Shown here in pieces: positions 18,101-58,797 of a stretch of DNA of 64,000 nucleotides. The notes under the pieces were generated by a model, which searched no databases, was not told the origin of the DNA, and saw only the letters and a program-made list of their open reading frames with translations. Both the position numbers and the translations under genes were made by a program. The stretch comes from a virus, in IMG/VR virus record IMGVR_UViG_3300050821_003463, positions 1 to 64,000 of that record; one strand, 5' to 3'. Within the stretch, counting starts at the first letter, position 1; each line of letters starts with the position of its first letter.

Positions 18101-20328
18101 CGGGGGACAATGACTTCAGCCAGCAGGGTGAAGAAAATGCCTATCAGCGTCACGCCCAGTCCTATAGCAAGGATGCGATTCCCGCTCTCACGACTGAGAC
18201 TAGGGGACAGACGTCTCACTACTTCAACAACGAGAAGGTCCGCAACGGTGGCGAACATTCTTTTGTTGACCAGCGCGCGGCGCTCTTGCCTGAGAGGTTT
18301 TATGCTAAAGGCACTGAGTCACAGTCAACTCCGATCTCCGACTCGCTAGTCTCGAAGTACGGCACGACCGATGATGCCCGAAAAGCAGCCTTTGTGCTAC
18401 CCGATGGTCGCATGGTCGAACTCAGCGGTGAGCACGATCAGATGGTCACGAATGCGGCAAAAGCTGCAGGCGTGAAAGACCTTCCCAAACCTACCGACGC
18501 TAACGGACAGATCGGTCCACGCGAGCATATCATCGCTAGTGAGAACGCGATCCGGACGCGCTATCGCCAGACTAAGGGTGGTAAAGAGATCGTCTTCTCC
18601 ATTCCTGATAAAATCACTGACGCGCAGGCGCAGCAACTTCGCATGGCGACGGCAAAGATACCTAACGGTAGCGTTGTCATCGAGCAGGGTAAACCTGGAG
18701 GGAGCTACAAGCAGATCGATGCGACCCCCGGCAACGTCCAGGCTGCGCTCGAAGACCTCGGCGCACGTCCGAAGGGCGAAGCGGTAGCAGAGGCGCAAGC
18801 CAAGGCTGACGCAGAGCGGGCACGGCAAGCGGCAGCACCGGCACCTGAACCGATCCCACAACCTGTCTATGTCAACCGTCATAACGGGGTGCATGAGGTG
18901 GTCACGGGACCCGCAGACGACCGCACAGGGTATCTTCTAGCGATGGATGTACCTTCGGAGAAAGAAGGAGAACCTTCTACTGAGGTTCGCGTTACATCTC
19001 ACACAGTTGATCCTGAGAAGCAAGGCAAGGGAGTTGGTTCCTCCCAGATTGAAACCTTAGCGAAGGAACTGCCGTCTGACAAGACAGCAGTGCTTAGCGA
19101 TCTTCCGAATAAGATGACCGACGCTGCGAAGGGCTCGTGGAAACGCCTGATGCGGCAGTACCCCATCGCAGTAACGGAAGAAGCTGATGGCGGCTATCGT
19201 TTTGATCTCGAAAAGCTGAGATCGCCTGCCGTCGAACGCACAACAGTTAGTCCGAAGGGATCGACTGTCCAGTTGATGAGCAATCCGTTACCCGTCAAAA
19301 CTGTCGGGTCGGATACTCCTTCAACGTTGGACGTCGCTATGGCTCTGAACAAGTACACTAAGAGAAATCTCGGTGCGCTGCAACCAGGGTCTGAACCCGC
19401 AGAGATGGTCGAGCGCGCGAAGTCACTCGCAGAAGACGAGGCGCGGTATCAACTAGGCACCAGCAACTCTGGTACTACATGGTACACCGAACAGATGGAC
19501 GAGCACGACGCAGTCGCAAAAGAGATGCGTCCCGAACTGAAAGACGATACAAAGTTATCGATCTTTAAGTTCGCAGAGGCAGTCTTGAGTTCCGGTCAGA
19601 AACCGTACAGGAACTTCACCGCAACGATGGAAGCGTGGGATCACTACGCCAAGGACGGAAAATTTCCGAGCACTAATCCATCAACCGGTAAGTCGTGGGG
19701 TCCACGCGGAATCGCAGCATACGGCAACGCGTTCGAGTCTATAAACCGTCTCATCGAAGAGAAAGGTGAGAAGGGCGCGGTTGACTGGATGATGGGCGAT
19801 CATCCGACGACCGAACTCAAAGAGTACAACAAGAACGTCTCGGGCAAGAAGACCGACCTGCAACCTGGAGTCATGATCCTGGGAGCAAAGCGCGGACCCT
19901 TCGCCCAGAACTTGCACGGCATGGAGACAGCCTTCACCGCCGACATGTGGGTGAGCCGAACCTGGAACCGGTGGATGGGCACGATTGAAGTCGCGGACGA
20001 TGGCGAGATATCATCCGATGCCCCCCGCAACCAACAGGAACGCTCTCTGATGAAGCAGTCGTTCTCGGAAGTCGCTCAGAAATTGGGGCTGACAACCAGC
20101 TCACTGCAAGCCGTTCTCTGGTACTACGAACAAGCCCTGTACACCGCGCACGGAACGCCGAAAGAGAGCTGGTCTTTCTCGGACGCTGCCCGACGCGCAC
20201 AAGCCGAAGCGAAGGCAAAAGCCCCCGCAGCGGCTGAACCTGAGACTCCCGCGACCGGATTCGGACCACGCGAGAGAGCAGGACAGTACAAGGACAAAGA
20301 GACGGAGTTCAATCCAGACGAACTTTAA
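15106..20328 (+). CDS. 1740-residue multidomain ejection-type protein
   Basis: A 1740-residue mosaic protein. The N-terminus (1-60) is Thr/Ala/Pro-rich. Residues about 75-300 are helical with Ala/Gly membrane-active-looking stretches, and 380-560 are highly charged helix. At about 915-1070 lies a conserved-looking enzyme-like block: KAGYRLQVESQDPYG, HDVMGH, a Glu/Asn/Arg/His cluster, TETRGQ and FVDQRAALLPERFY, with His and Asp residues able to bind metal. Residues about 1285-1365 look like a GNAT domain (RVTSHTVDPEKQGKGVGSSQ). Residues about 1455-1690 form a further helical module starting at TWYTEQMDEHD, resembling DUF7178-type phage domains. The protein is probably packaged and delivered into the host, with activities acting early after entry. 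Domain names are from memory of patterns. Confidence 0.65.
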   Translation: MGILDDAAKDQSTPQATPATPTAAPTGATQGGSILEQAAAEQPSTAASSTVTPPPVESTLDRWKREAYETLGQAVPQAAVAPMQGLKTHILDKFQQSGRELGNIAENKVNSFIAAADDMMNEDLNDKRTAIPAYAKGLESEYLRQKFQTEAPVTAGVTGGVANLGGQILGDPTNWPFLAKGLVSQASKVSASAFKPWAEKLMSKGFGLQMSAGVVSQLDQLKDNWDKMSDYDKSHAITQVIAGTYMAQSAVREGFKGEPKAKVETPATVGPEAGGEGPRTSTQTGTVAGEANALRPTIRTTAGVEAPITAKSAATLEGQKPSILQRVADTFTTPGAETTFGKERTAPAATRQAVSTVGQVAEDRIAQHEAIVNGETPEEGITGTQQTSKFTSPDEAWQEMQRTAQNTTFRKADEISQREQAAWEAKRDEAHQDYKDLVDRHNKNIDDYNAQVPKDQQMPHAVADLNEVAVPDRPQTYNELRSDVQTEQANARSQDAAVREEAIKTGLPKAEKAMDNWFKQHSDEVSPAEYDSVRKLWADSERMKEIAMGLRGPLTKGNLTGNQMRQIEVSMNNRQLRRGQSPDAFQRLLGTDGYNNWQNVAKLFDTVKDPTLPEQFQSWGKYAGEYLVSALIPHILGSGIAAKWGMEKLLNHVMFDPEFGSTFGKVVDWLKSQHGRVVDSIKELPTTLRDQMTNIIKAYKDAGEQGAVGRNIKKPVKRLGGAKPAPAVAPATPEETQVAAHEANGGSTFTPEGQNLAGQNTYSVAAYPGRTQQLDNLTPDALQAFKDQNKDVLSQPNHAVGTWKDTDTGKHVLDVAKLYGDRGEAVSAGQAANQKAIYHLGRNELIPTGGTGEVPSVNNVVNDYNASQGKPEVSSVKTPVDPRTADKIADEYDKLKHSPNNPKVKKAYSALIKETKDQWHALEKAGYRLQVESQDPYGLDSSKPAYQEMSEDVKNNKRIKVWDGGKPPADHPLSGIDPETGVSYNTLFRAVHDVMGHVAGDNDFSQQGEENAYQRHAQSYSKDAIPALTTETRGQTSHYFNNEKVRNGGEHSFVDQRAALLPERFYAKGTESQSTPISDSLVSKYGTTDDARKAAFVLPDGRMVELSGEHDQMVTNAAKAAGVKDLPKPTDANGQIGPREHIIASENAIRTRYRQTKGGKEIVFSIPDKITDAQAQQLRMATAKIPNGSVVIEQGKPGGSYKQIDATPGNVQAALEDLGARPKGEAVAEAQAKADAERARQAAAPAPEPIPQPVYVNRHNGVHEVVTGPADDRTGYLLAMDVPSEKEGEPSTEVRVTSHTVDPEKQGKGVGSSQIETLAKELPSDKTAVLSDLPNKMTDAAKGSWKRLMRQYPIAVTEEADGGYRFDLEKLRSPAVERTTVSPKGSTVQLMSNPLPVKTVGSDTPSTLDVAMALNKYTKRNLGALQPGSEPAEMVERAKSLAEDEARYQLGTSNSGTTWYTEQMDEHDAVAKEMRPELKDDTKLSIFKFAEAVLSSGQKPYRNFTATMEAWDHYAKDGKFPSTNPSTGKSWGPRGIAAYGNAFESINRLIEEKGEKGAVDWMMGDHPTTELKEYNKNVSGKKTDLQPGVMILGAKRGPFAQNLHGMETAFTADMWVSRTWNRWMGTIEVADDGEISSDAPRNQQERSLMKQSFSEVAQKLGLTTSSLQAVLWYYEQALYTAHGTPKESWSFSDAARRAQAEAKAKAPAAAEPETPATGFGPRERAGQYKDKETEFNPDEL

Positions 20329-34186: not shown

Positions 34187-34595
34187 TTGCCTGCTCCTGT
34201 GCTTTCAGTGCCGCCTCTTCCTTCGCCAGTCGAATGTAGGTCGACATGAAACGAAAGAACATAGTAGCGTACTTCTTCCCGCGCATCGCGATGAGCGGCT
34301 GCTTGCCCTGCGTGCGATAGAACTGGTCGGTCGTCTCGACCAACTGTGGGTGATGCAAGAACCACTGCCACCAGCAGTTCTCACAATTGGTTCGCGGCTC
34401 TGTGATCATATCGAGCCTATGCCCGCACTGTTCGAGCAGGACGTGCTTGACCGTGAAGTAGTGACCGCGCATCTGGCGCAGTAACTTCTCCGTCATTACG
34501 GGCGGTTTGCCGTCCGGTCCTGGACGAAGCTCGGGCGGGAGCCGCTGTAGTTCTTCGGCTGTGAGCCCCGGTTGTTCAGTTATTGGTTCTGACAT
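34080..34595 (-). CDS. Hypothetical protein upstream of recA
   Basis: A 171-residue protein, not recognised. The middle carries NCENCWWQWFLHHPQLV, a CxxC-Trp motif that could bind zinc or an iron-sulphur cluster, plus CGHR upstream. The N-terminus is Pro-rich and the C-terminus is Gln/Gly/Glu-rich and overlaps recA by 107 bases. Coupling to recA suggests a DNA-transaction role. Confidence 0.65.
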   Translation of the reverse strand: MSEPITEQPGLTAEELQRLPPELRPGPDGKPPVMTEKLLRQMRGHYFTVKHVLLEQCGHRLDMITEPRTNCENCWWQWFLHHPQLVETTDQFYRTQGKQPLIAMRGKKYATMFFRFMSTYIRLAKEEAALKAQEQANVSTGQGQSQPGVLGDGTPVEESGEVSQAAGTLEG

Positions 34596-35122
34596 TTAAT
34601 CCTCCTGAACCACGAAGTCATGTTATACCACTCGTCGTACGTGAAGTCCTCCCGCTTGCTTAGATTACACCTAGGACAGCAGGCAACACAGTTTTCGTAG
34701 GAATACCCGAGCGCTGAATTTTTGCGATCTAAGTTATACCGCTGTTTTGAACGAGTGCTTCCGCCATGTTGGTGCGGTTCCCACACAAGCTGTGCTAAGC
34801 AGTAGTGACATTGAGGGTGACGCGTGAAACGTAGAAACTCTTCGTAGGTCAAAGTATTCTCTCGTTTCAACCGTGTAGCCCAATAGCACAATGCCTTGTA
34901 TAGCCATTCATAAGGGCGAAGGGTACGTCGAGTGTGACAGGCGTCGCAGCCTTGATGCGCGTTGTCATTTGCAAGGCTGCGCTTGAGGTTTTCTCCTGTT
35001 CGCAAAAAGATATTTCCACAAGCGCATTTGCAATCCCACAAGCTGCGTCCTGCTTTGTTAGTACCGTTTCGTTGAAGGACGATGACTTGTCCTATCTGAC
35101 GTCCGATTAGATCGAGGGTCAT
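34580..35122 (-). CDS. HNH homing-type endonuclease
   Basis: A 180-residue protein. The N-terminus LIGRQIGQVIVLQRNG ... WDCKCACGN is the zinc-bearing recognition region typical of phage HNH endonucleases. A second Cys pair (CDACH) follows. The nuclease core is CHYCLAQLVWE, then YNLDRKNSALGYSYENCVAC and CPRCNLSK, with Asp/Asn in the beta-beta-alpha-metal position. It overlaps both neighbours (16 and 65 bases) and probably inserted between or into them. Likely a free-standing selfish element. Confidence 0.85.
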   Translation of the reverse strand: MTLDLIGRQIGQVIVLQRNGTNKAGRSLWDCKCACGNIFLRTGENLKRSLANDNAHQGCDACHTRRTLRPYEWLYKALCYWATRLKRENTLTYEEFLRFTRHPQCHYCLAQLVWEPHQHGGSTRSKQRYNLDRKNSALGYSYENCVACCPRCNLSKREDFTYDEWYNMTSWFRRIKCQNQ

Positions 35123-39424: not shown

Positions 39425-39690
39425 GGTTTCCATCCCTCCAGGTGCCAGAATTTTACTTCCAGATCGCGAGCCGTGGTCCGGAGAACCTCGATTCGCAACT
39501 TCCCGCCGTGAACTCCATCGATATGACAGTGCCTGCAAAGCGTCAGGAGATTTGACATCTCATCAGAGCCGCCCGCGCTCCGGTAGATCACATGGTGCGG
39601 ATCGAGCGTCTGTCGGTTCCCGCAGTGTCGGCACTTCCAGCTATCCCGCTGATACACCGCGTTGCTGATCGCTCTTGGCAGGCTCGGCAT
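39421..39690 (-). CDS. HNH endonuclease
   Basis: An 89-residue protein. The ATG at 39690 has GGGAG upstream. The core is YQRDSWKCRHCGNRQTLDPH, then HHVIYRSAGGSDEMSNLLTL and CRHCHIDGVHG, a complete HNH fold with zinc Cys pairs. It is short and free-standing. The end overlaps the next gene by four bases and the start lies 50 bases inside the ClpB-like gene. It could be a homing nuclease or a packaging-type HNH. Confidence 0.85.
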   Translation of the reverse strand: MPSLPRAISNAVYQRDSWKCRHCGNRQTLDPHHVIYRSAGGSDEMSNLLTLCRHCHIDGVHGGKLRIEVLRTTARDLEVKFWHLEGWKP

Positions 39691-40693
39691 AATACTCCCA
39701 TATCCCGTTTGCGTAGTCAACGATAATCGTATCGCTCGGCAAGACTTGCCCAGTCGCAACGAGTCTGCCCAGGGGTGTTGCGACGTGCTGGTCAATCGTC
39801 CGTTTCAGGTTACGGGCGTTATATCTCCGGTCGTACCCTTCCTTCAAGATTTGCCGCAAGCCCGAAGGGGAGACTTGAAACTCAAACTGTACGGGTGAGT
39901 GCGATGCGATCCGGTCCCACAGTTTCTCCAGCTCCAGGCTAAGGATCGAGTCGAGGTCGCTCGGCGTCAAAGTCTTGAACATGATGACCTTGTCGAGCCG
40001 GTTCAAGAACTCAGGCTTGAACTTGCTGCGTGCCGCAGCCATAGCGATCTCTTTCATCTGTGATTCGCTACGTTCCTTGGTGCTGCCAGTAAAACCAATT
40101 GCACTTTCATCGGCTAACTCAGCGGAGCCGACGTTGCTGGTCATGATGATGACGGTAGAGGTCAAGTCGACGACCTCGTTCGCGCCCGTAGTCAGGGTAC
40201 CCTTATCGAGAATGCCCAGCAAGAGATTCCACAGAGAGTCGCTCGCCTTCTCGATCTCATCGAACATGATAATCGTGAAGGGCATTAGCTCGCTGTGGGC
40301 AGTCCCTGAGCGTGCCGCGAGGACGCTTGCGTTCGTGAAGAACGGGTGCGTCTCACGGTGTCCCAGGTAGCCTGGGGGAGAGCCGACCAACTTTGCGATC
40401 TCGTGGCTGTGTTGGAACTCCGCACAGTCCACCTTCAACATCTTCTTCGGGTCGCCAAATAGACCTTCAGCAAAAGCTTCCCCGACACCGGTCTTGCCGA
40501 CTCCGGTAGGTCCGAGAAACAGCAGACTCGCTATCGGCTTCGTCCGGTCGTAAAATCCGCTCTGGAACTTCTCCAGAACGGAGGAGAGGGCTGTGGTCGC
40601 TTCAGTCTGTCCCACTATACGGAGAGAGAACCGCGACGCGAGTGCCTGTGCCTTGTAGCTCTGTCGATTCAGGTCTAGCTGTCGAACTGTCAT
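39641..40693 (-). CDS. ClpB/ClpA D2-type AAA+ ATPase
   Basis: A 350-residue single-ring AAA+ protein from ATG 40693, with GAGGTG upstream; the frame upstream of that is Arg/Thr/Ser-rich and overlaps another gene. Walker A is GPTGVGKT (61-68). The pore loop SPPGYLGH (about 105-112) is the aromatic substrate-gripping loop of Clp/Hsp100 D2. Walker B is IIMFDEIEKA (about 141-150), sensor 1 is MTSNVGS, then FKPEFLNRLDKVIMF and a C-terminal small domain with sensor 2 (YNARNLKRTID). No N-domain, D1 ring or peptidase-docking loop is visible. It is probably an unfoldase or disassembly motor, with GroES nearby hinting at a proteostasis module. Confidence 0.88.
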   Translation of the reverse strand: MTVRQLDLNRQSYKAQALASRFSLRIVGQTEATTALSSVLEKFQSGFYDRTKPIASLLFLGPTGVGKTGVGEAFAEGLFGDPKKMLKVDCAEFQHSHEIAKLVGSPPGYLGHRETHPFFTNASVLAARSGTAHSELMPFTIIMFDEIEKASDSLWNLLLGILDKGTLTTGANEVVDLTSTVIIMTSNVGSAELADESAIGFTGSTKERSESQMKEIAMAAARSKFKPEFLNRLDKVIMFKTLTPSDLDSILSLELEKLWDRIASHSPVQFEFQVSPSGLRQILKEGYDRRYNARNLKRTIDQHVATPLGRLVATGQVLPSDTIIVDYANGIWEYYAEPAKSDQQRGVSAG

Positions 40694-40703
40694 GCAACGC
40701 ACC

Positions 40704-41459
40704 TCACTGGTCTTGAAGTTTTTGTTCGAGTTCTGCGATCTGTTGGTTGATGTCTTCAATCGGGTCGTCGTCGACGTCCGAAAGGTCAGGAGCGCCCATC
40801 TCTGCGGGTTCCGTGGGGTTGAAGTTCTCATCCGCCAGGAAGTTCGCACAGATCATCTCCAGCGCTGCGCCGTCGCTCGGATCGACGAAGTTTCCGTCAT
40901 CATCCTTCGTCTGGGACTCAGGCATGTGCTTCTTCGCCAGAGCCAGAGCGGGCTTAACGCAGTTCTCACGCGCGAGTTTCTTCAGGTGGATGTTGAGCCA
41001 CACCATTGATTCGTCTTCAGTAAGCCCAAGGATCGTTTCGACCTCAAACGTTACCTCTTCCAGGGACATACCGCTAGCTTTCTCGGTGAGTTCCTTGATG
41101 ATGAGCGGCATTGGAACGCCTTTAAACTCACCCTCTAAATTCAGCCGAGAGATCACACGCAGCTTGCCCATCCCAACGGGCTCATACACATCGCGCCCCA
41201 GACCGACGCCCTTCATAAGTTCGATGACCTTGACGTAGTAGTAGGCACGGCTGTACTTAATGCTCAAACTCTTTGCGAACTTTGAGAAAGACTCGAAGTC
41301 AGGTGAGTAGTAGTGATTCGACTTCGCCTCGTGCAGCAAGTCAGCGATGTCAAATTCACTGCTGTTAAGACCTTTGATCAGCTTGTTGATATCCCTGCGC
41401 ACCTTCGCGGCGCGCCCAGCTTCGATCTCTCCAACTACAGCAGGAATGTTTGGTTCCAT
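40704..41459 (-). CDS. Conserved phage protein, HTH-like
   Basis: A 251-residue protein, not firmly recognised. Residues about 35-85 (IADLLHEAKSNHYYSPDFES, then FAKSLSIKYSRAYYYVKVIE) look like the DUF3102/ParB-type helical region for DNA binding. The middle is helical, the C-terminal 50 residues are acidic (SDVDDDPIEDINQQIAELEQ). GAGGAAGT precedes the ATG. It is probably co-expressed with the ClpB-like ATPase and could be its client adaptor or a DNA-associated regulator. Confidence 0.6.
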   Translation of the reverse strand: MEPNIPAVVGEIEAGRAAKVRRDINKLIKGLNSSEFDIADLLHEAKSNHYYSPDFESFSKFAKSLSIKYSRAYYYVKVIELMKGVGLGRDVYEPVGMGKLRVISRLNLEGEFKGVPMPLIIKELTEKASGMSLEEVTFEVETILGLTEDESMVWLNIHLKKLARENCVKPALALAKKHMPESQTKDDDGNFVDPSDGAALEMICANFLADENFNPTEPAEMGAPDLSDVDDDPIEDINQQIAELEQKLQDQ

Positions 41460-42797: not shown

Positions 42798-43964
42798 CTA
42801 TGTGTGCGCGTCGACCATCGGGTTCTTTCCCGAGGTCATCTGCTTGACCATCTTCCAGATGATAGCACGTTCGTCCTTGCCGTCCAACCTCGCGAACAGA
42901 ATACCTGAATACTTTACAAACTCTGGTCGCTTTATGATCAGCGCCCAGTCCTTGCGAACCGGAATGTTGCCCGATTCTTTCCACTGCTGATTGAGCACTC
43001 CTTGGATTACGCTGTAAGAGGCAGCGGCTCCGTGCTCGATCTCTTTGTACTCGGCGGTCAGCGCACGCATCCACTTCTGTACGAATGCGCTGAACCACGG
43101 AGTGCTTTGCTTGAGATATTCGTCCAACTCTGATGACTGATTGGTCGCCAGAACTTCCCAGATTCGTTTGGGTGACACGCCTGTGACCATGCGGTGCAGT
43201 CTCAGGTATTCGATGAACTTCAGTTTCAAGCGGAAGGGCGGTTTGCCCTTCTGATACCATGTGGTGACATATCCCTCTTCGTCGAGCCCGCAGTAGATCA
43301 TCGTCTCGTCGTGAACTGTCTTCAGAGTGGCGTTCTTCAGCTTTGGAGTCGCCAGCCCCCGCGAGTCTGCGAACGCGATCAGAGCCCCCGGTGAATACTC
43401 TTCGCCCGTCTCGTTATTGATCAGAGCTAGCAGGACCAGTTCCTTGCGCTCTTTGTAGTCTACGACGATACGTAGGTCGGGGTGTAGCCCTTCGAACACT
43501 GCAGTATAGCCAGGGAGCACTCCCAGAGATTCACCAAAACTCTTACGCAGCCATGCGGTCGCCCACTTCGCGTGAACGGAGTGAAACGAACCCTTGGACG
43601 CGAGGTAGTCAACTCCGTCCCAGGTGTATAACGTACACATGAACCCATCCATCTTCTCCCACACAACGGGAGCCTGGAACGCCTCAGTACCGAGAACCCC
43701 CAGAACGTCTGTCGCCATCGGGTTCCCGTAGTTGTGGAACTTCTCGAACGGGCGCGAGACGATGTCGCCGGTCAACCAGTTAATAACAATGCCACGGCAC
43801 TTGCTCGTGACCCCGTCCCACCTCTGCTCTTGCACAGTCTTGCGCGAGTAGGCGAAGATCGAAAGCGGGAACTCGCTATGGTTCTGCTGCGATACGTACC
43901 CCGTCTCGATATACTTCTCGCTGAACTCTGCGGGAGACATGCCGATATAGGTGAAGAAGTTCAT
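42798..43964 (-). CDS. T4 Rnl1-type RNA ligase
   Basis: A 388-residue protein, close to the family's usual size. The nucleotidyl-transfer Lys is K104 in VWEKMDGFM (motif I). Upstream lies CRGIVINWLTGDIVSRPFEK. Motif III/IIIa-like VFEGLHPDLRIVVDY and motif V-like FRLKLKFIEY follow. The C-terminal domain resembles the Rnl1 extension. It probably repairs tRNA anticodon cuts, as in T4 defence against anticodon nucleases, which fits the tRNA genes of this phage. Its start overlaps the small upstream gene by four bases. Confidence 0.88.
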   Translation of the reverse strand: MNFFTYIGMSPAEFSEKYIETGYVSQQNHSEFPLSIFAYSRKTVQEQRWDGVTSKCRGIVINWLTGDIVSRPFEKFHNYGNPMATDVLGVLGTEAFQAPVVWEKMDGFMCTLYTWDGVDYLASKGSFHSVHAKWATAWLRKSFGESLGVLPGYTAVFEGLHPDLRIVVDYKERKELVLLALINNETGEEYSPGALIAFADSRGLATPKLKNATLKTVHDETMIYCGLDEEGYVTTWYQKGKPPFRLKLKFIEYLRLHRMVTGVSPKRIWEVLATNQSSELDEYLKQSTPWFSAFVQKWMRALTAEYKEIEHGAAASYSVIQGVLNQQWKESGNIPVRKDWALIIKRPEFVKYSGILFARLDGKDERAIIWKMVKQMTSGKNPMVDAHT

Positions 43965-46597: not shown

Positions 46598-47422
46598 CTA
46601 GTTGTCGTTACACACTGCGTAATAGTGTTCTTCGTACATCTCCACCAGCAACTTGTCGACCTTAGCATAGTCGGGCTTCGACTGCAAGGGAGAACTTTTA
46701 TGCGCCTCTTCGAGCACCTTCAGACGCGCGCTCACGACGGAGCAAACCGTATCGAGTGACCACTTGCCCTGTCGAACTTCAAGCAACAGAGGCTTGTCGG
46801 GTCGAGGGTAGGTGATAGTGCCGGTCTGCAGTAGCTCAAAGCCTTCACTGCACAATCGGATCGCGTGCATCGCCGCCTTGGTGTCATACCCGTGCGTCTC
46901 CGTGAGTTCAGGGCGCTGTCCGTGCCTGCCCAGCCCCTTCTCTCCCAGGAGCCGCTTCATCTGCCCAGTTACGAAACCAGTGAAGTGCCCCGCCGCCGAC
47001 TTCGCGACGATAGCGCCGCGCAGCTCACTCGCGTACGAGCCCCAGAGGGAGATATCCTGCATATCCCAGTTAAGCGCTAGCGCGTTCTCTGCGAAGAGAA
47101 AACTTAACGCAGTCGGGTTCCCCTGACACGCAAGCCGCGCCCACCGACGCAGAGTGTACAATGTAATATCTGTATCCTCCGCGTTGTTGCGCCTGCTCAT
47201 GTCACTAGTGCTCGTGACGCAGTGCTCGAACGGATGGAGCCCGAAGACGTGTTCCTTCGGCTCGATGAAGATGCCGTAGATATCTAGATCAGACTTCTCG
47301 GTCAGCCGCGCGCCGTGCAACGCAGAGCCGCCCTCGAAGAGATGGAGCACATCTCTCGCCTCGCACGTTTGGCTAAACGCTGACTCGGTCACTGCATGCA
47401 GTAGCTGTTCTTTAGTTGCCAT
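46598..47422 (-). CDS. Pol-beta-type nucleotidyltransferase (YcgL-like)
   Basis: A 274-residue protein. LFEGGSALHGARLTEKSDLD is the GS...D-x-D active-site pattern of pol beta nucleotidyltransferases, followed by IYGIFIEPKEHVFG and a VTSTSD strand. The middle and C-terminus are helical with conserved-looking FAENAL and GHFTGFVTGQMKRL. Similar phage proteins are predicted nucleotidyltransferases of unknown substrate; candidates are tRNA ends, antibiotics or proteins. Its start lies 34 bases inside the exported hydrolase gene. Confidence 0.75.
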   Translation of the reverse strand: MATKEQLLHAVTESAFSQTCEARDVLHLFEGGSALHGARLTEKSDLDIYGIFIEPKEHVFGLHPFEHCVTSTSDMSRRNNAEDTDITLYTLRRWARLACQGNPTALSFLFAENALALNWDMQDISLWGSYASELRGAIVAKSAAGHFTGFVTGQMKRLLGEKGLGRHGQRPELTETHGYDTKAAMHAIRLCSEGFELLQTGTITYPRPDKPLLLEVRQGKWSLDTVCSVVSARLKVLEEAHKSSPLQSKPDYAKVDKLLVEMYEEHYYAVCNDN

Positions 47423-49711: not shown

Positions 49712-49924
49712 TCACCGGAAGTGCCTTCCTGTCTTCGGCGCGGAGGGGATTGGCTTCTTCGCCGTCAGACGATACGTAAGATAGTTAGACGGCTGAGGCA
49801 CGACGATTGAGAAAACTTCCCAACCATCCTGTGCCCACTCGTTGCACGCTTGCTGTATCTTGTCGGGTTGCGTCCAACTGTCGACATTGTTTACGACTAT
49901 GCGCGAACGGAATTCATATGTCAT
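49712..49924 (-). CDS. DUF4177-like protein ending in GRHFR tag
   Basis: A 70-residue protein. DKIQQACNEWAQDGWEVFSI, then a YRLTAKKP strand, fits the small DUF4177-type alpha/beta fold. It ends PKTGRHFR, the same C-terminal tag carried by the SWIM zinc-finger protein directly upstream and by two proteins at 56-58.8 kb. It starts in a four-base overlap with the SWIM gene, which couples their translation. Confidence 0.65.
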   Translation of the reverse strand: MTYEFRSRIVVNNVDSWTQPDKIQQACNEWAQDGWEVFSIVVPQPSNYLTYRLTAKKPIPSAPKTGRHFR

Positions 49925-50949
49925 CGAAATTTTCTCCCAGTGGTAAAAAGGGGCTTGCTCGCACCAGCCGGTAACGCTGGCGTGCCCGCCGCTGCCTGCT
50001 GTCGAAGGAACTTCTGGAACGCTTCCTGCTGATCTTCCGGCATCAGCGCGACCGGCGCAGCGCTCGGCTTGACGCCTTCTGATAGCATGACCTTCAGGAT
50101 GTGCTTACACTCTGTACGTGGGGAGTGCTGCGTAAAGTTAGGGCACGAGCAAGCCCAGCCCTCAGCCGTTGTCGAGCCCTTCGGATTCACAGTGCGACTG
50201 ACCACGTAGGGTGCCTTCGCCGTGCCTTGCACAGTCCACTGCGTTGTCCACATCGGGGAGTTCGACTTCGGCAGTTTTCGCACCTCACCGTTCTTCATCG
50301 GAGGTGTGACCTTCTTTACCTTCACGAAAGACGGCTTTACGTGATCTTCGATATTCACAGTTCCCTTTCCGCTGCAGGCAGGGCAATGCGTGCCCGACCA
50401 GTCTGCCTGATTGTGATACAGATTGCAACCGAGACAGCGCACGACAGCGTACTCTATCTTCGGTCCAAAGACTTGCGCCCAGCTTTTAATTTTCTGAGAA
50501 ACCTGCTCCACCGTAGTCGGCGCAGTGATCGTGTCGCCCCACTTCTCGTACTTCCACATCGGCTTGCCGTCTTCGAGCACTCCACCTGAAGTGTCATTGA
50601 GCGCGCGCCGATAGTAGCCCTTCAGGTTGCTGTGGATGGGAACTGTAGGTTTTTCTTCCATCGCGTCCGCGTTATCCCAGATACCGGTTATGTCTTTCTG
50701 GAACGGAGACGCATAGTGGATGGGGTGTTTCGACAGCGGTATCCTGGGCGTCTCGTTCGTTATGGTCTTGACCTTCTTGCCGCACTTCGTGCAAGTGAAA
50801 ACTATCTTGGTGCCCGCCCAGTCTGCTGCGCCCACCGTGTTGAAGTGCGCGCACTTTGCCTGCTCAACGCGACAGGATGAGCATAGCCCGTCCCCGTGGG
50901 GAAAGTCTTCCGTATGGGTCGCGCACTTCGAGCAGTTGACTTTTGCCAT
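49921..50949 (-). CDS. SWIM zinc-finger protein ending in GRKFR tag
   Basis: A 342-residue protein. I chose the ATG at 50949, which has GGAGG five bases upstream, over the preceding GTG. Zinc ribbons: CSKC...CSSC (residues about 6-27), CAH...CTKC (about 33-57), CLGC...CPAC (about 165-190). The SWIM motif is CSCPNFTQHSPRTECKHI (C-x-C ... C-x-H, about 265-285). SWIM domains bind DNA or proteins and, in bacterial operons, often sit beside MoxR-type AAA ATPases. This one ends FTTGRKFR, like the Ycf46-like AAA ATPase and its partner. It probably joins the same assembly. Confidence 0.75.
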   Translation of the reverse strand: MAKVNCSKCATHTEDFPHGDGLCSSCRVEQAKCAHFNTVGAADWAGTKIVFTCTKCGKKVKTITNETPRIPLSKHPIHYASPFQKDITGIWDNADAMEEKPTVPIHSNLKGYYRRALNDTSGGVLEDGKPMWKYEKWGDTITAPTTVEQVSQKIKSWAQVFGPKIEYAVVRCLGCNLYHNQADWSGTHCPACSGKGTVNIEDHVKPSFVKVKKVTPPMKNGEVRKLPKSNSPMWTTQWTVQGTAKAPYVVSRTVNPKGSTTAEGWACSCPNFTQHSPRTECKHILKVMLSEGVKPSAAPVALMPEDQQEAFQKFLRQQAAAGTPALPAGASKPLFTTGRKFR

Positions 50950-50961
50950 CACATCCTCCGG

Positions 50962-54018: not shown

Positions 54019-54449
54019 CACCGCACCTCCTGATCGAGCAGATGGTTGACGATGATTGCCTTGCCCTTCGCGATGCAGCCAGGGCACGTCACAACCCAGG
54101 TATCCAAGTAGCAGCGGGTCACTGCGCCAGCCTTAGCACAGAGCGTGCTGCCTTCCTGGATAACGTGGCTGTTGGTTTCGACATCGTACGCGCTGGTGTT
54201 CAGGATGTGAAAGTGATGCTCCCCTGCGACCAGCACCGTATTGAACGGCAGAAGCTTCTGCACGTCTCCGTCTGCGATGCTGCGTTTGAGTACCTCGCGC
54301 TCCAGCCGATCAAAGTCAAGTATGATTAGCGTTGCCGTGGGTGTGAGTAAGTCGACGCTTGGGTCGACAACGTCAAACGTGGTGGATGCCTTGGCGAGCG
54401 CTGCTCGAAGTTCAGACTGGCGCAAAGCTTGATATTGAAATTCGTTCAT
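54018..54449 (-). CDS. Hypothetical protein
   Basis: A 143-residue protein, not recognised. Helical N-terminus (NEFQYQALRQSELRAALAKA), then strands (TATLIILDFDRLEREVLKRS and TVLVAGEHHFHILNTSAYDV), with several Cys near the end (RCYLDTWVVTCPGC). Follows the HNH-like gene by a four-base overlap. Confidence 0.55.
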   Translation of the reverse strand: MNEFQYQALRQSELRAALAKASTTFDVVDPSVDLLTPTATLIILDFDRLEREVLKRSIADGDVQKLLPFNTVLVAGEHHFHILNTSAYDVETNSHVIQEGSTLCAKAGAVTRCYLDTWVVTCPGCIAKGKAIIVNHLLDQEVR

Positions 54450-54790
54450 AGGGTTACCTTTCGCTTGGCGAGTTCCGCCAAAAGTTCGAACGTTGAAAAA
54501 TTTTTCAGAGTCTTTCGTCCCTTCGGATGCCTCTGGTTTTTAATGCTCTGCCTGCGGGTTGCCCACCGTACGTTGCCTACAGCATAATGCCCATCGTTTT
54601 CAATTCGGTCAAGCATGCGACGTGAGGGGCGTTTGCCGAGTTCTGCGAAGAACTCCTCGAATGAGGTGAACAGGAATTTTATTCCCCGTCCACCATAATT
54701 CGGGAAGTCTGTGCAATTCGGATTCGTGCAACGATTACGAGCATCGTAGTAAGCCCGCCATTCGACGGGGTGTGTCTTGTAGGGTTTCAT
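54446..54790 (-). CDS. HNH-like/AP2-like endonuclease
   Basis: A 114-residue protein. The pattern WRAYYDARNRCTNPNC, YGGRGIKFLF, FEEFFAELGKRPSRRMLDRI, then ENDGHYAVGNVRWATRRQSI is the well-known small HNH-family endonuclease outline (LDRIDNDGxYxPGNxRWAT). It probably inserted as a mobile nuclease between the DUF2997 and DUF-like genes. Zinc Cys pairs are absent, as is usual for this subgroup. Confidence 0.85.
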   Translation of the reverse strand: MKPYKTHPVEWRAYYDARNRCTNPNCTDFPNYGGRGIKFLFTSFEEFFAELGKRPSRRMLDRIENDGHYAVGNVRWATRRQSIKNQRHPKGRKTLKNFSTFELLAELAKRKVTL

Positions 54791-54792
54791 GT

Positions 54793-54984
54793 TTACTGCT
54801 TCAGCGTGTTCTTGTGCTGAGCAGGCTTGTTGAATTCACCCTTGTGTGTGACCTTCACGGTTTGCCCGATTGCATTCCCGAAAGCCTGTGCGACTGCGTC
54901 GCAGCCTTTGCCCTGGTACCCATTCAGGTCTACCGTTTGGTCGCCGGTGGCGATGTCAATGTTGATGGTGATTATCTTAGCCAA
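54793..54984 (-). CDS. DUF2997-like protein
   Basis: A 63-residue protein starting at TTG 54984, with GAGGG upstream; a TTG at 55008 in the same frame lies inside the preceding gene. The pattern NGYQGKGCDAVAQAFGNAIG matches DUF2997 (G-x-G-x-x-C and helix). Family members often lie beside DUF1257, as here. Function unknown; it may act with the AAA ATPase. Confidence 0.75.
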   Translation of the reverse strand: MAKIITINIDIATGDQTVDLNGYQGKGCDAVAQAFGNAIGQTVKVTHKGEFNKPAQHKNTLKQ

Positions 54985-54991
54985 AGTGCCC

Positions 54992-55399
54992 TCACTTTCG
55001 GTTGTCAATGAATTGGAGTTGAACTTTCCCGTTGACGATCTTCTTGCCGAGGAACTGCAGACCGTTCTTGCGCGCGGTCTTCATGTCCACCTTCTCGGTA
55101 TACGCGACCTTCAGTTTCGTCATCCAGGTAGCGTCGTGCTTGTTGCTATCGTAGTCGCTGACGATTGCGCTGTAGGTCCCGTCCGCTGCTTTGACAAAGC
55201 CGAGATCGTTCGCTGCGCTACCTATGTGCTGGCGGCGCACGATGACGTTGGCTGTCTGTGCTCGCTTGTCGCCGTGATAGCCGAACAAGTTCTGTGCGAC
55301 TTCGTTCACTTCCACGTTCTTGTAGCCCATCTCACCAAGGGCTTCGACAAGACAGTCGCGATCTTTGTACTGTGTCTTCTGTGTGTGGTATGCGCTCAT
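54992..55399 (-). CDS. DUF1257 (Ycf35-type) protein
   Basis: A 135-residue protein. MSAYHTQKTQYKDRDCLVEA, then GYHGDKRAQTANVIVRRQHI, DLGFVKAADGTYSAIVSDYD and TEKVDMKTARKNGLQ are the family signature in order. DUF1257/Ycf35 is found in cyanobacteria, plastids and phages, frequently next to DUF2997 and an AAA ATPase of the Ycf46 type. It likely forms part of the module with the genes at 56.2-58.8 kb. Confidence 0.85.
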   Translation of the reverse strand: MSAYHTQKTQYKDRDCLVEALGEMGYKNVEVNEVAQNLFGYHGDKRAQTANVIVRRQHIGSAANDLGFVKAADGTYSAIVSDYDSNKHDATWMTKLKVAYTEKVDMKTARKNGLQFLGKKIVNGKVQLQFIDNRK

Positions 55400-55400
55400 G

Positions 55401-55562
55401 CTATTCGTTCTCCCTTCGAATTTGTTTGCCCGCGTTGACGAGAATGTCGATTACGTTAACGGCGTCTTGCTGTGAAAGTTTGCCCGCGTTCATCGACCAG
55501 CCGACATACAATAGCGCGTGGGATATCTTGAGATACCCGGGTGTGTGCCACGGTTGCTTCAT
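55401..55562 (-). CDS. Small hypothetical protein
   Basis: A 53-residue protein (MKQPWHTPGYLKISHALLYV, then QQDAVNVIDILVNAGKQIRR), helical, not recognised. GAGGGG precedes the ATG; coupled by a four-base overlap to the one-span peptide. Confidence 0.55.
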   Translation of the reverse strand: MKQPWHTPGYLKISHALLYVGWSMNAGKLSQQDAVNVIDILVNAGKQIRRENE

Positions 55563-55678
55563 CGTGTTCCCCTCTCATAATAGTTGGCGCGCGCTTCGAG
55601 TGCTGCGCGCTTTGCCTGTGATCCGCGCCGCCACATGTAGACCAGCGCGACGATTGCGAGACTGAAGATAACTTTCAT
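55559..55678 (-). CDS. Tiny one-span membrane peptide
   Basis: A 39-residue protein with a hydrophobic N-terminus (VIFSLAIVALVYMW) and a basic/Ala-rich tail. GAGGACACT precedes the ATG; four-base overlaps to both neighbours. Confidence 0.55.
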   Translation of the reverse strand: MKVIFSLAIVALVYMWRRGSQAKRAALEARANYYERGTR

Positions 55679-56133
55679 AGTGTCCTCTCAGCAAAGAATT
55701 TATTGAGGAAGGCGATCTCCGCACTGATAGCTGCTTGTCTGTCGTGCGTCGTGAACGTCCGGTGATCCATCCACGCAGCGACGGGCGACGGTGCGACATG
55801 CTCCCAGGTTAGAACAGGTCCGCCGACAGGGGACGTATCGACTCGCCACTCGCATGCCCACGTTCGTGTCCACGCTGCGACCTTGCTCGTGTCGCTGGAG
55901 AGTATACGAAGTAGATTGAAGGCGAGACGCAGTAGCCAGCCTGCGGGTTCTACGTGCGACGCGCGCTTCGTGATCACCTCTCCGAGTTCGAGGAAGCAAT
56001 CTGCGCTGTCGGTCTTCAGGAAGACTTGGTCACCATTCTCATCTATCGTGACGGTGATAATCTTGTGCGCTGGAATCGGGAACGTCTTGGGATATCGCGC
56101 GTCGTACCCTTCAGGTTTTGAGATGTGCTTCAC
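55675..56133 (-). CDS. Hypothetical protein
   Basis: A 152-residue protein starting at GTG with GGAGAAC upstream, not recognised. The first half has strands (PIPAHKIITVTIDENGDQVF); the second is Trp/Thr-rich with RTFTTHDRQAAISAEIAFLN. It could be a small SH3- or DUF-type domain. Intergenic hairpin upstream. Confidence 0.55.
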   Translation of the reverse strand: MKHISKPEGYDARYPKTFPIPAHKIITVTIDENGDQVFLKTDSADCFLELGEVITKRASHVEPAGWLLRLAFNLLRILSSDTSKVAAWTRTWACEWRVDTSPVGGPVLTWEHVAPSPVAAWMDHRTFTTHDRQAAISAEIAFLNKFFAERTL

Positions 56134-56160
56134 AGATGTTCTCCAGTGTTATAGAGGTGA

Positions 56161-56184
56161 GGGGCGGCTGTGTGAGCCCGCCCC
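56161..56184 (-). promoter_or_regulatory. GC-rich intergenic hairpin
   Basis: GGGGCGG (56161-56167) and CCGCCCC (56178-56184) pair over a 10-base loop, in the 59-base gap after the GRKFR-tagged gene. No T-run follows on the - strand; a weak terminator or mRNA-stabilising stem. Confidence 0.45.
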
Positions 56185-56192
56185 TGTTGAGT

Positions 56193-57104
56193 CTAGCGAA
56201 ACTTTCTGCCAGAGGTGATAACCATCGTCTTCAGTTCAGCGCGTACGCCTTCGAGTTGAGAGATGACGTACTGTTGAAGGTTGCCCGACTCTTTCAGGCG
56301 TTCGACCGTGACACCCTGCATCGCGTTCTTCACGACTTGCATGTTCTTCATGAAGTCCACGTCGTTCGCGAGATCACGATCAGGCAGCGTGTCGAGGAAC
56401 TCTTGCAGGTGCTCGACGTGACAGCCGTACATCTTCTTCGTCTTGCCCGCTTCAGGCTTGAGCATCGCGAAGAGTGCGTCGACCATCTCAGCACCAGCCA
56501 AGCGCATCGCATCGCGCCACTCGATAACAGCCTGCATGCGGATGCTGCGTTCCTTCTCCTGCTCACGGGCGATAATGATATCGCTCATGCCGGTGAGGTT
56601 CACGCTGCCGACGTTGCGGTAGTTGAACTCCAGAACGAAGCCAGCCTCTACTGTGTCGCTCGCTGGATAGTCGCTCCGGTCAAAGTTCTCAGCAAGAACC
56701 TCGCGCAGCGGTTGAAAGTCTACCGCTTCGAGTTCCCTGTACTTCGTCATGAACGCCTCGACTAACTTGGGGCGTCGAATCGTCTGGTATGCGACGATGG
56801 CGCGGTCCACTTCGTTCAGCCACTTGCGCGGAAGGAAGCGCGTTGCCTCGCGATACCAGCATGACTTGGACTCGACGTAGCGCTTCAGGAAGCCGTCCTG
56901 TGAGCGAATCTCTTCGAGTTCGGGTGAGTCCATCAGGCGTTTCTGGTGACGCAGTTCACTCGCCTGTGTAGCGGTTTCGACTTTCAGATTCTTGATCTGG
57001 CGCATGCGACCGATGCCCATGCGGAAGTTGATGGTGATTGAGACGCAGCTTTCAGTCTTGCTCAGGTCAACGTTCGCGACGGGTGCCACTGCGGGTGATG
57101 CCAT
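56193..57104 (-). CDS. GRKFR-tagged helical protein, DUF3150-like candidate
   Basis: A 303-residue protein from ATG 57104 with GGGAG eight bases upstream; the ATG at 57119 overlaps that site. It is mostly helical: QIKNLKVETATQASELRHQK, then LKRYVESKSCWYREATRFLP, a middle beta stretch and a long charged C-terminal half. The early GFLKRYVESKSCWYREAT region recalls DUF3150-type partners of phage CobS/MoxR ATPases; this is a loose resemblance. It ends MVITSGRKFR. Downstream of the AAA gene with a 140-base gap, so it probably forms a complex with that ATPase. Confidence 0.6.
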   Translation of the reverse strand: MASPAVAPVANVDLSKTESCVSITINFRMGIGRMRQIKNLKVETATQASELRHQKRLMDSPELEEIRSQDGFLKRYVESKSCWYREATRFLPRKWLNEVDRAIVAYQTIRRPKLVEAFMTKYRELEAVDFQPLREVLAENFDRSDYPASDTVEAGFVLEFNYRNVGSVNLTGMSDIIIAREQEKERSIRMQAVIEWRDAMRLAGAEMVDALFAMLKPEAGKTKKMYGCHVEHLQEFLDTLPDRDLANDVDFMKNMQVVKNAMQGVTVERLKESGNLQQYVISQLEGVRAELKTMVITSGRKFR

Positions 57105-57130
57105 TTTATTTTCTCCCATAAGAAGTTTGT

Positions 57131-57161
57131 GGCGCGATTTATTTTGTGACTACGTCGCGCC
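57131..57161 (-). promoter_or_regulatory. Inverted repeat between AAA gene and its partner
   Basis: GGCGCGA (57131-57137) and TCGCGCC (57155-57161) form a perfect 7-bp stem with a 17-base loop, upstream of the GRKFR-tagged partner gene. Function unknown. Confidence 0.45.
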
Positions 57162-57246
57162 GTCGGTCAGCCTGAGCCGCCGTGCTTACTGCGACTTCAG
57201 TTCACTACAGTTTAACGTCATGGAGTGAGCGTATGGACGGTTGCTA

Positions 57247-58797
57247 CTACCGCATCTTGCGTCCTTCCGTTATCTTCACGGTCGGCGCGTGCTTGGTTGC
57301 GGGTGGAGTGTACTTGTAGACGCCCTGGTTAGATGCCGACAGGAAGCGGTCGGTAGCTCCAGCGCGTAGCACCTCCATCTCTTCTTTATGACTGGTCATC
57401 AGAGGGATGATGTATTGACCAGCATCTTCCAGCGTGACGCGCATCTTCCGCGCCTTGTTAGCGCAGTTCTTGATGTCGCGCCCAGTCCAGCCCGTCATGT
57501 CGGGGTAGGTCTGTGCGGGGAGTTTGTTCGCTGTAACTTTCAGGTCCATGATGCCCTTCTTCTCTTCGTCGTTCGGCGCATCAAAGAAGAAGATGTCAGC
57601 GAAGCGGGAGAGCAGTTCGGGCGGTAGACCGTCCAGTTTGTTTGCGGTTGCGATGAGCCACACGCGACCGTCGCTAATGGATTGCACGGTGTGATTCGCG
57701 CTCACCATGTTTTTGTTCGAGTTGCCAACCAGTGAGTCTTGCATTTTTGAGATGCTGTAGTCGATGACTGGCTTGTCGAACTCACCAGCGATGCAGTCGA
57801 TGCTGTGCGACTTAGACGAGCCCGGTACACCCAGGAACAACGAGCAGTAGATGTCGTTATCGTTCACCCAGGTCAGCCACTCGCCAAGTAGGTCACCCTT
57901 GACGCCGCTGCTGTCGGTGTCGTTCCCTGAGAACTGGCGTTGTATCTCATCCATCCTCAGAATCACGGTGGGTGATTGCTCACCAGTCATCAGCTTGCGA
58001 CCGTATGCCTTGATCGATTCAACCCCGTACAGGTCCTTCAACTTCAGACCACCTGCGCGGTAGGTCAAACCTTTCTGCTGGGAGACGATAGTCTTCTTGC
58101 GAAGCCACAGCGTCTCGATATCCAAAATGCCCTTCGCTTTGTCCAAGCACATCGCAGTCGCCTGCTCTGCTGGGAAGAGAGGGATTCCGATGAGTGCGTC
58201 AACAGCGTTCAAGACTACCGCTTCACTCGGTCCAGCCTTGCACGCTGCGTACTTCACTTTGTCACTCGCGTATGCGTACGCGTATGTCTCGCGGACGATT
58301 GCTGCGAGTTCAGCGCGCGTCGGCAGTGGATGCTCTAGCACCAGCGTGTCTTGCTGCAACACGACTGGGATGCTGTCACCGATTCCGAGGAGTAGCACGC
58401 ACATGTTACCGCGCGCCTTGTAATCGTTGCGCAGATTGGCAACACCCTGGATGACTTTCTTGTCATCGTCCCAGGTGAGCTGCGGATTGAGGATGAATGC
58501 GAGGACATCTTCCTGCGCTGCTTCGAGGATGCCAAGCGCGATGGGCAGGTCAACCGATGCGCCGACTTCCATGCCGCTCTCGCTCGCCATCTTCTGTAGA
58601 GCGCTCGTGCCAGCGTCTGTAAGCCCGCGTAGCCCGTGGATGCTGTCCCAGGCTATGAAGGGGGTGACCTCTGCGAGTTCAGCGCCCAGCGAAGCCTGTA
58701 TCGTCGTAATGGTCGACGTAGGATCGAAGGTGCGGATAGCGACGGTCGGGGTCGATACCGCGCGTGCGTCAGTGAACATCTCAATGAATGACTTCAT
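57247..58797 (-). CDS. Ycf46-like AAA ATPase with Walker B before Walker A, GRKMR-tagged
   Basis: A 516-residue protein; GGAGGAG precedes the ATG. The N-terminal region (1-260), with FIAWDSIHGLRGLTD, VLLLGIGDSIPVVLQQD and LVLEHPLPTRAELAAIVRE, resembles the N-terminal domain of Ycf46. A Walker-B-like VILRMDEIQRQFSG (about 278-291) comes before Walker A GVPGSSKS (about 323-330, Ser instead of Gly in the loop). Then VGNSNKNM, sensor 1 LIATANKLDGLPPELLSRFA and DIFFFDAPNDEEKKGIM, and a C-terminal small domain. The order B-then-A differs from normal AAA proteins but keeps all needed elements. It ends KITEGRKMR. Likely a remodelling ATPase acting with DUF1257/DUF2997. Confidence 0.85.
   Translation of the reverse strand: MKSFIEMFTDARAVSTPTVAIRTFDPTSTITTIQASLGAELAEVTPFIAWDSIHGLRGLTDAGTSALQKMASESGMEVGASVDLPIALGILEAAQEDVLAFILNPQLTWDDDKKVIQGVANLRNDYKARGNMCVLLLGIGDSIPVVLQQDTLVLEHPLPTRAELAAIVRETYAYAYASDKVKYAACKAGPSEAVVLNAVDALIGIPLFPAEQATAMCLDKAKGILDIETLWLRKKTIVSQQKGLTYRAGGLKLKDLYGVESIKAYGRKLMTGEQSPTVILRMDEIQRQFSGNDTDSSGVKGDLLGEWLTWVNDNDIYCSLFLGVPGSSKSHSIDCIAGEFDKPVIDYSISKMQDSLVGNSNKNMVSANHTVQSISDGRVWLIATANKLDGLPPELLSRFADIFFFDAPNDEEKKGIMDLKVTANKLPAQTYPDMTGWTGRDIKNCANKARKMRVTLEDAGQYIIPLMTSHKEEMEVLRAGATDRFLSASNQGVYKYTPPATKHAPTVKITEGRKMR

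Follow-up and report, generated by a model that had tools for sequence, protein, structure and literature searches.

Introduction

What would a phage do with a Ycf46-like AAA ATPase encoded together with proteins of the DUF1257 (Ycf35-type) and DUF2997 families? This question is raised by the virus record IMGVR_UViG_3300050821_003463 of IMG/VR (94,543 bases), of which positions 1 to 64,000 constitute the window, i.e. the whole stretch of DNA analysed here. A first-pass annotation of the window had described these three genes and that of a helical partner as a module on one strand, complemented by a SWIM protein. The open reading frame (ORF) positions of the four genes agreed with this description, and the short tags it had noticed are real, GRKMR of the ATPase, GRKFR of the helical protein and GRKFR of the SWIM protein being located at the exact C-termini. 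The module itself was thus confirmed; however, the SWIM protein lies outside the range given for it (54793-58797) and its Pfam match is weak (PF04434, E = 0.29, 11.2 bits against a cut-off of 19.6, with a CxC...CxH pattern present), and a further conserved gene at 55675-56133, whose product we named HVEP, had been overlooked. Here we describe that the ATPase belongs to a clade in which the Walker B block precedes Walker A, and that its C-terminal tail recurs on unrelated proteins.

Results

The Walker B block is placed upstream of Walker A in the ATPase

The order of the AAA blocks was assigned by three profile hidden Markov models (HMMs), corresponding to block A (Walker A to helix 2), block B (Walker B and helix 3) and block C (sensor 1 onward), which were built from nine canonical ATPases only (from phages and from cyanobacterial and other plasmids) to avoid circularity. 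The order was B-A-C in 85/85 proteins of the permuted family versus A-B-C in 9/9 of the canonical ATPases, and 80/80 further canonical viral relatives were also A-B-C (normal total, 89/89); since both sets were fetched with collinear queries, intermediates may have been missed. The 85 loci comprise this phage, Tunturiibacter phage Tunturi_3 and 83 contigs. A single-sequence search of viral contigs for relatives of the ATPase gave none, so that alignment queries were required; the alignment-based scans yielded about 80 IMG/VR loci and one contig in a Bacteroidetes metagenome-assembled genome (L011, 8 kb, probably phage), the latter being all that was obtained from the scan of genome contigs. 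In all canonical relatives that were checked, Walker B followed Walker A at a spacing of exactly 55 residues, whereas in the permuted family it preceded Walker A by approximately 44 residues and, in most members, the distance from Walker A on to sensor 1 was 60 residues. The AAA motif order Walker A - Walker B - sensor 1 is therefore not found in the permuted family.

An assembly or frame artefact was rejected as the cause: all 85 proteins, which come from many different contigs and from the isolate genome of Tunturi_3, have this order. Circular permutation was also rejected, because the first domain and the sensor-1/C-terminal part are in place and only two inner blocks are exchanged. The designation of the ATPase as Ycf46-like held at the superfamily level, at which, judging from its sequence, it is related to Ycf46, but it is not a plain Ycf46 copy: the permuted proteins branch separately as a clade of their own, and collinearity with the blocks of bacterial Ycf46-like ATPases is lost.

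In a tree of 153 sequences, the permuted and canonical proteins were split with a support of 1.0, and the same split was obtained with only the parts outside the swap. Since every permuted protein that was retrieved falls into this one clade, a single rearrangement suffices to explain them, and the tree fits a single origin of the block swap. The order B-A-C would result if a duplication gave A-B-A-B-C and the first A and the last B were then lost.

The Pfam AAA match of the ATPase scored above the cut-off (E = 1.1e-7) and was split into two stretches. The Walker A Lys, Walker B Glu, sensor-1 Asn (N386) and arginine finger (R398) were conserved in 85/85 members and the Walker B Asp in 84/85, and the third glycine of the P-loop was frequently replaced by Ala or Ser (51/85). 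In the first AAA domain, a P-loop pattern was present in 2/85 members only and absent from 83/85. The AlphaFold2 model of the ATPase (seven sequences) had a mean predicted local distance difference test score (pLDDT) of 79, and the AAA core blocks mostly scored 84–94. The moved segment was modelled as a strand (residues 278–282) and a helix (299–313), with ten-residue blocks at pLDDT 84–91 and the loop 291–300 at 50. We infer that the moved strand would keep its usual place in the sheet; the fold could survive the swap because just three connections would be rewired. The last 15 residues had pLDDT below 50, and the tail is therefore probably flexible.

The best PDB matches of this model were tandem AAA proteins of the Cdc48/p97 type (Foldseek E = 3.3e-11), and the canonical relatives matched VAT/Cdc48 at E = 1.6e-91. 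Regarding the two activities suggested in the first-pass annotation, protein remodelling is slightly better supported than nucleic-acid remodelling, because the solved structures to which the normal homologues are most closely related are those of Cdc48/p97/VAT.

In the ATPase of the contig L086 (10001-11959), approximately 160 additional residues separate the Walker A block from sensor 1; an intein-splicing match was obtained below the Pfam cut-off (E = 5.4e-6), and the motor core of this protein probably contains an intein.

The permuted ATPase recurs with the same neighbours

The ATPase, DUF1257 and helical proteins recur jointly in most of the 85 loci; the families are thus not scattered separately and at random, the pattern that would have spoken against the first-pass annotation. 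Within 9 kb and on the same strand, the helical partner was found in 83 loci, DUF1257 in 79, DUF2997 in 52 and HVEP in 48, all of which are lower bounds because of contig ends and small gene size, and three gene orders cover 62/85 loci. These counts indicate that the module is conserved and not chance company. In the present phage, the transcription order on the minus strand is ATPase, helical protein, HVEP, 53-aa ORF, DUF1257 and DUF2997.

The DUF1257 protein matched Pfam PF06868 above the cut-off (E = 3.9e-9, 37.1 bits against 22.2), and the DUF1257 profile matched Pseudanabaena DUF1257 at E = 2.6e-18. The match of the DUF2997 protein to PF11211 was below the gathering cut-off (E = 0.011, 16 bits against 24.1); the assignment stands because the profile derived from the phage loci matched annotated bacterial DUF2997 proteins (E = 4.7e-13 and 1.5e-12), and the gene adjoins that of DUF1257. 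HVEP homologues were also found in the phages HJ05, RHph_I4, SM1 and RcDurkin, which carry canonical modules. For the 53-aa ORF, no homologue was found among the relatives collected by that stage, and the helical protein had no family match in Pfam, PHROG or NCBIfam. Its homologue in Tunturi_3, gp96 (L003:15690-16649), is annotated as ‘HNH endonuclease’, which is probably wrong. Among cultured phages, only Tunturi_3 matched the permuted ATPase along its length; Aeromonas phage HJ05 encodes a distant ATPase relative with normal block order. Tunturi_3 is a podovirus of an Acidobacteriota host and was described with a lytic infection cycle (PMC11924767).

The grouping of these families in bacteria, which had also been claimed, was confirmed by ATPase-DUF1257-DUF2997 clusters in bacteria and other phages. 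A DUF2997-ycf35-fed7 cluster has been recorded in cyanobacteria (cluster g in Synechocystis; PMC4284462), and such neighbours, together with a radical-SAM/4Fe-4S neighbour in Paenibacillus and, in Treponema, one annotated as 4Fe-4S, hint at a redox or Fe-S/metal-related role. For this phage we consider such a role very improbable, as Pfam detected no ferredoxin or radical-SAM gene among its module genes.

A C-terminal tail is shared by unrelated proteins

The general form of the tail is R-x-hydrophobic-x-hydrophobic, with G-R-x-hydrophobic-polar as a variant. Five GR-x-hydrophobic-R tails were counted among 163 ORFs of this genome versus 0.24 expected; in addition to those of the ATPase, helical protein and SWIM protein, they are GRHFR (49712-49924) and GRRFR (genome 70018-70368), and a sixth match to the pattern (34580-35122) appears fortuitous. 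Across relatives, a tail of any form was present in the last 12 residues of 85% of helical proteins, 58% of permuted ATPases, 82% of canonical partners and 37% of canonical ATPases, compared with 2–4% for DUF1257, 0% for DUF2997, 0% for HVEP and approximately 1–6% for internal control windows. The partner in canonical modules is thus tail-bearing, although it is unrelated to the helical protein. Origin of the tail through recent gene duplication was rejected, because the carriers belong to unrelated families. The tail as a by-product of ribosome-binding (Shine-Dalgarno) sites was also rejected, because the Arg codons vary (81% CGN) and the distance to the downstream gene often exceeds 100 bases.

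The tail carriers in sister phages included SWIM, WGR, zinc-binding/Zn-finger, YqaJ exonuclease and DUF3820 proteins. Tagged homologues of the SWIM protein were found in sister phages L013 and L014, and a tagged SWIM-like relative in L033 scored just under the Pfam cut-off (E = 0.0015). The proposed link of the SWIM protein to the module is therefore supported indirectly, by the common tail and by recurrence in sister phages, and the protein is likely a partner or client of the module. Tail variants of unrelated proteins were alike within a genome, for instance RKIR on several proteins of one phage and RKFR or RRFR in phages that are sisters of it; when labels were shuffled, this concerted variation gave p = 0.0002, for tails listed by hand and with genome relatedness not fully removed.

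These carriers bear on an explanation in which the tail docks replication and recombination proteins on a common hub, as clamp- or SSB-binding peptides do, and the ATPase is a subunit whose ATP turnover merely switches assembly. The recognisable carriers are mostly of nucleic-acid types, and canonical modules adjoin helicase and DNA polymerase genes, both of which favour such a scaffold. We nevertheless regard it as unlikely, though worth keeping in mind, since the active site of the ATPase is complete and, among solved structures, those closest to its normal homologues belong to protein unfoldases.

The same carriers tell on the idea that the module is a chaperone that helps virion building, with the tail marking proteins for incorporation or handling. 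A role in virion assembly has been proposed for phage AAA chaperones, namely the MoxR-vWA pairs of jumbo phages (PMC7824862), and Hsp70/GrpE genes adjoin the Pseudanabaena module. On the other hand, no structural protein is found among the carriers whose domain was recognised, and the tagged genes of this phage lie on the minus strand among DNA-metabolism genes, which makes an assembly chaperone improbable.

ClpX-recognised signals include the basic C-terminus of Mu transposase, and the tail could analogously be a ClpX-type degradation signal that times the removal of early proteins. This phage has its own ClpX-like AAA protein (39641-40849, minus strand; AAA_2 and ClpB_D2-small), of which close homologues are encoded by two of its sisters (G003 and G004); however, G001 and G005 bear tails and no ClpX-like homologue was found there, many tails end acidic (FEDDE), and the ATPase itself would be degraded. 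A degradation signal is accordingly the explanation to which we give hardly any credence.

Two further sets of termini were noted. Tail-bearing proteins of approximately 230–240 aa in the same two sister phages as the tagged SWIM homologues (L013:15906-16586 and L014:17776-18498) look clamp-like by eye and had no Pfam match. Beside the Paenibacillus module (L094:7868-9208), the C-termini of two predicted membrane proteins read SRVIHF and KRVIRL, and bacterial modules may likewise carry the tail.

Other features of the window

The features of the module and its surroundings are listed in Table 1. Directly downstream of the module, an HNH endonuclease is encoded at 54446-54790 (minus strand; PHROG 3377, E = 1.7e-22), possibly a homing endonuclease. 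An RlaP-type RNA-repair nucleotidyltransferase (46598-47422) and a T4 Rnl1-like RNA ligase (42798-43964), both on the minus strand, possibly constitute an RNA-repair pair. The window also has four tRNA genes and a 1740-aa protein (15106-20328, plus strand) that matched only families of unknown function.

Table 1. Module genes, transposed blocks and tail-bearing proteins in the window
Feature	Position	Strand	Size or residues	Characteristics	Basis
AAA+ ATPase	57247-58797	minus	516 aa	degenerate first AAA domain, second AAA domain in block order B-A-C; C-terminus GRKMR	ORF, Pfam AAA
Walker B + alpha-3 block of ATPase	57853-57966	minus	residues 278-315	upstream of Walker A	block HMM E = 2e-6
Walker A to alpha-2 block of ATPase	57676-57837	minus	residues 321-374	GVPGSSKS	block HMM E = 2e-8
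Sensor-1 / arginine-finger block of ATPase	57541-57663	minus	residues 379-419		block HMM E = 7e-12
C-terminal tail of ATPase	57250-57264	minus		GRKMR	
Helical partner	56193-57119	minus	308 aa	C-terminus GRKFR	recurrence in loci
HVEP	55675-56133	minus	152 aa	small module protein	homologues in loci
53-aa ORF	55401-55562	minus	53 aa	within cluster	
DUF1257 (Ycf35-type) protein	54992-55399	minus	135 aa	no tail	Pfam, recurrence in loci
DUF2997 protein	54793-55008	minus	up to 71 aa (TTG start)	overlaps DUF1257 gene	Pfam sub-threshold, profile link
SWIM-type zinc protein	49921-50952	minus	343 aa	C-terminus GRKFR	tail, tagged sister-phage homologues
70-aa protein	49712-49924	minus	70 aa	C-terminus GRHFR; overlaps SWIM gene end	

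Discussion

We propose that the moved strand, if it takes its usual place in the sheet, would allow a working ATPase ring like that of Cdc48, for which the tail would act as a docking peptide recognised by one common reader. The reader would most likely be an untagged module protein (DUF1257, DUF2997 or HVEP) or a site on the ring, and the ring would use the energy of ATP to load tail-bearing proteins, remodel them or release them in the course of phage DNA metabolism. We hold this Cdc48-like ring with a docking tail to be tentatively plausible, a little short of an even chance. Somewhat less probable than this is the wider proposal that the permuted AAA+ clade drives a peptide-addressed system, in which a genome-specific tail co-evolving with its reader would bring unrelated DNA/RNA-handling proteins to one ATP-driven machine.

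Several observations weigh against the proposed ring and its docking peptide. The tails vary, and the pattern is not matched by approximately 40% of the permuted ATPases and 60% of the canonical ones. The Foldseek TM-scores of the ATPase model to p97 are low (approximately 0.3–0.5). The DUF1257 model is confident (AlphaFold2 pLDDT 94), and the comparison with the PDB gave no fold match (best E = 0.44) and nothing pointing to peptide binding. The identity of the reader is a guess derived from which proteins lack the tail.

Few protein machines have been studied as thoroughly as AAA+ motors, whose motif order is regarded as invariable; a naturally occurring clade in which internal blocks are swapped while the active-site residues are intact therefore probes how much rewiring the fold tolerates. 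The common tail offers a handle on DUF1257/DUF2997 modules, including those of cyanobacteria and plastids, as a synthetic peptide could find the reader and its clients. The permuted ATPase and its partners are carried by a cultured phage, Tunturi_3.

In the literature searched, which excludes subscription journals, we came across no description of AAA+ proteins with a transposed Walker B block, nor of such a C-terminal tail; the searched literature also gave no experimentally assigned function for AAA-DUF1257-DUF2997 clusters. Based on these comparisons, the ATPase is, as far as its sequence tells, a new variant form within AAA+. Circularly permuted P-loop proteins, such as the RsgA/YjeQ GTPases, also have an altered motif order with the fold presumed to be kept; in contrast to them, the phage ATPase exchanges two inner blocks with both flanks fixed. 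The closest solved relatives, the AAA unfoldases Cdc48/p97/VAT, likewise have two tandem AAA domains, whereas in the phage family the first domain lacks a P-loop and the second has the transposed Walker B block.

At the level of the gene cluster, the Ycf46-like AAA/DUF1257/DUF2997 clusters of cyanobacteria and other bacteria have the same three families adjoining, with homologous DUF1257 and DUF2997, but their ATPases show the normal A-B-C order, unlike the phage B-A-C, and the helical partner was not found there. The canonical modules of Aeromonas phage HJ05, Rhizobium phage RHph_I4, Rhodobacter phage RcDurkin and Pseudomonas phage SM1 are arranged in the same order (ATPase, partner, DUF1257, DUF2997 and small protein) and several have C-terminal tails on the ATPase and/or the partner; they differ in the normal AAA block order and in the partner, which is an unrelated protein of approximately 210 aa from a different family. 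Tunturi_3 (PP885686) encodes the permuted ATPase (gp103, 37% identity), DUF1257, DUF2997, HVEP and the helical protein, differing in that the helical gene lies further downstream and the tail of the ATPase is GRIIR.

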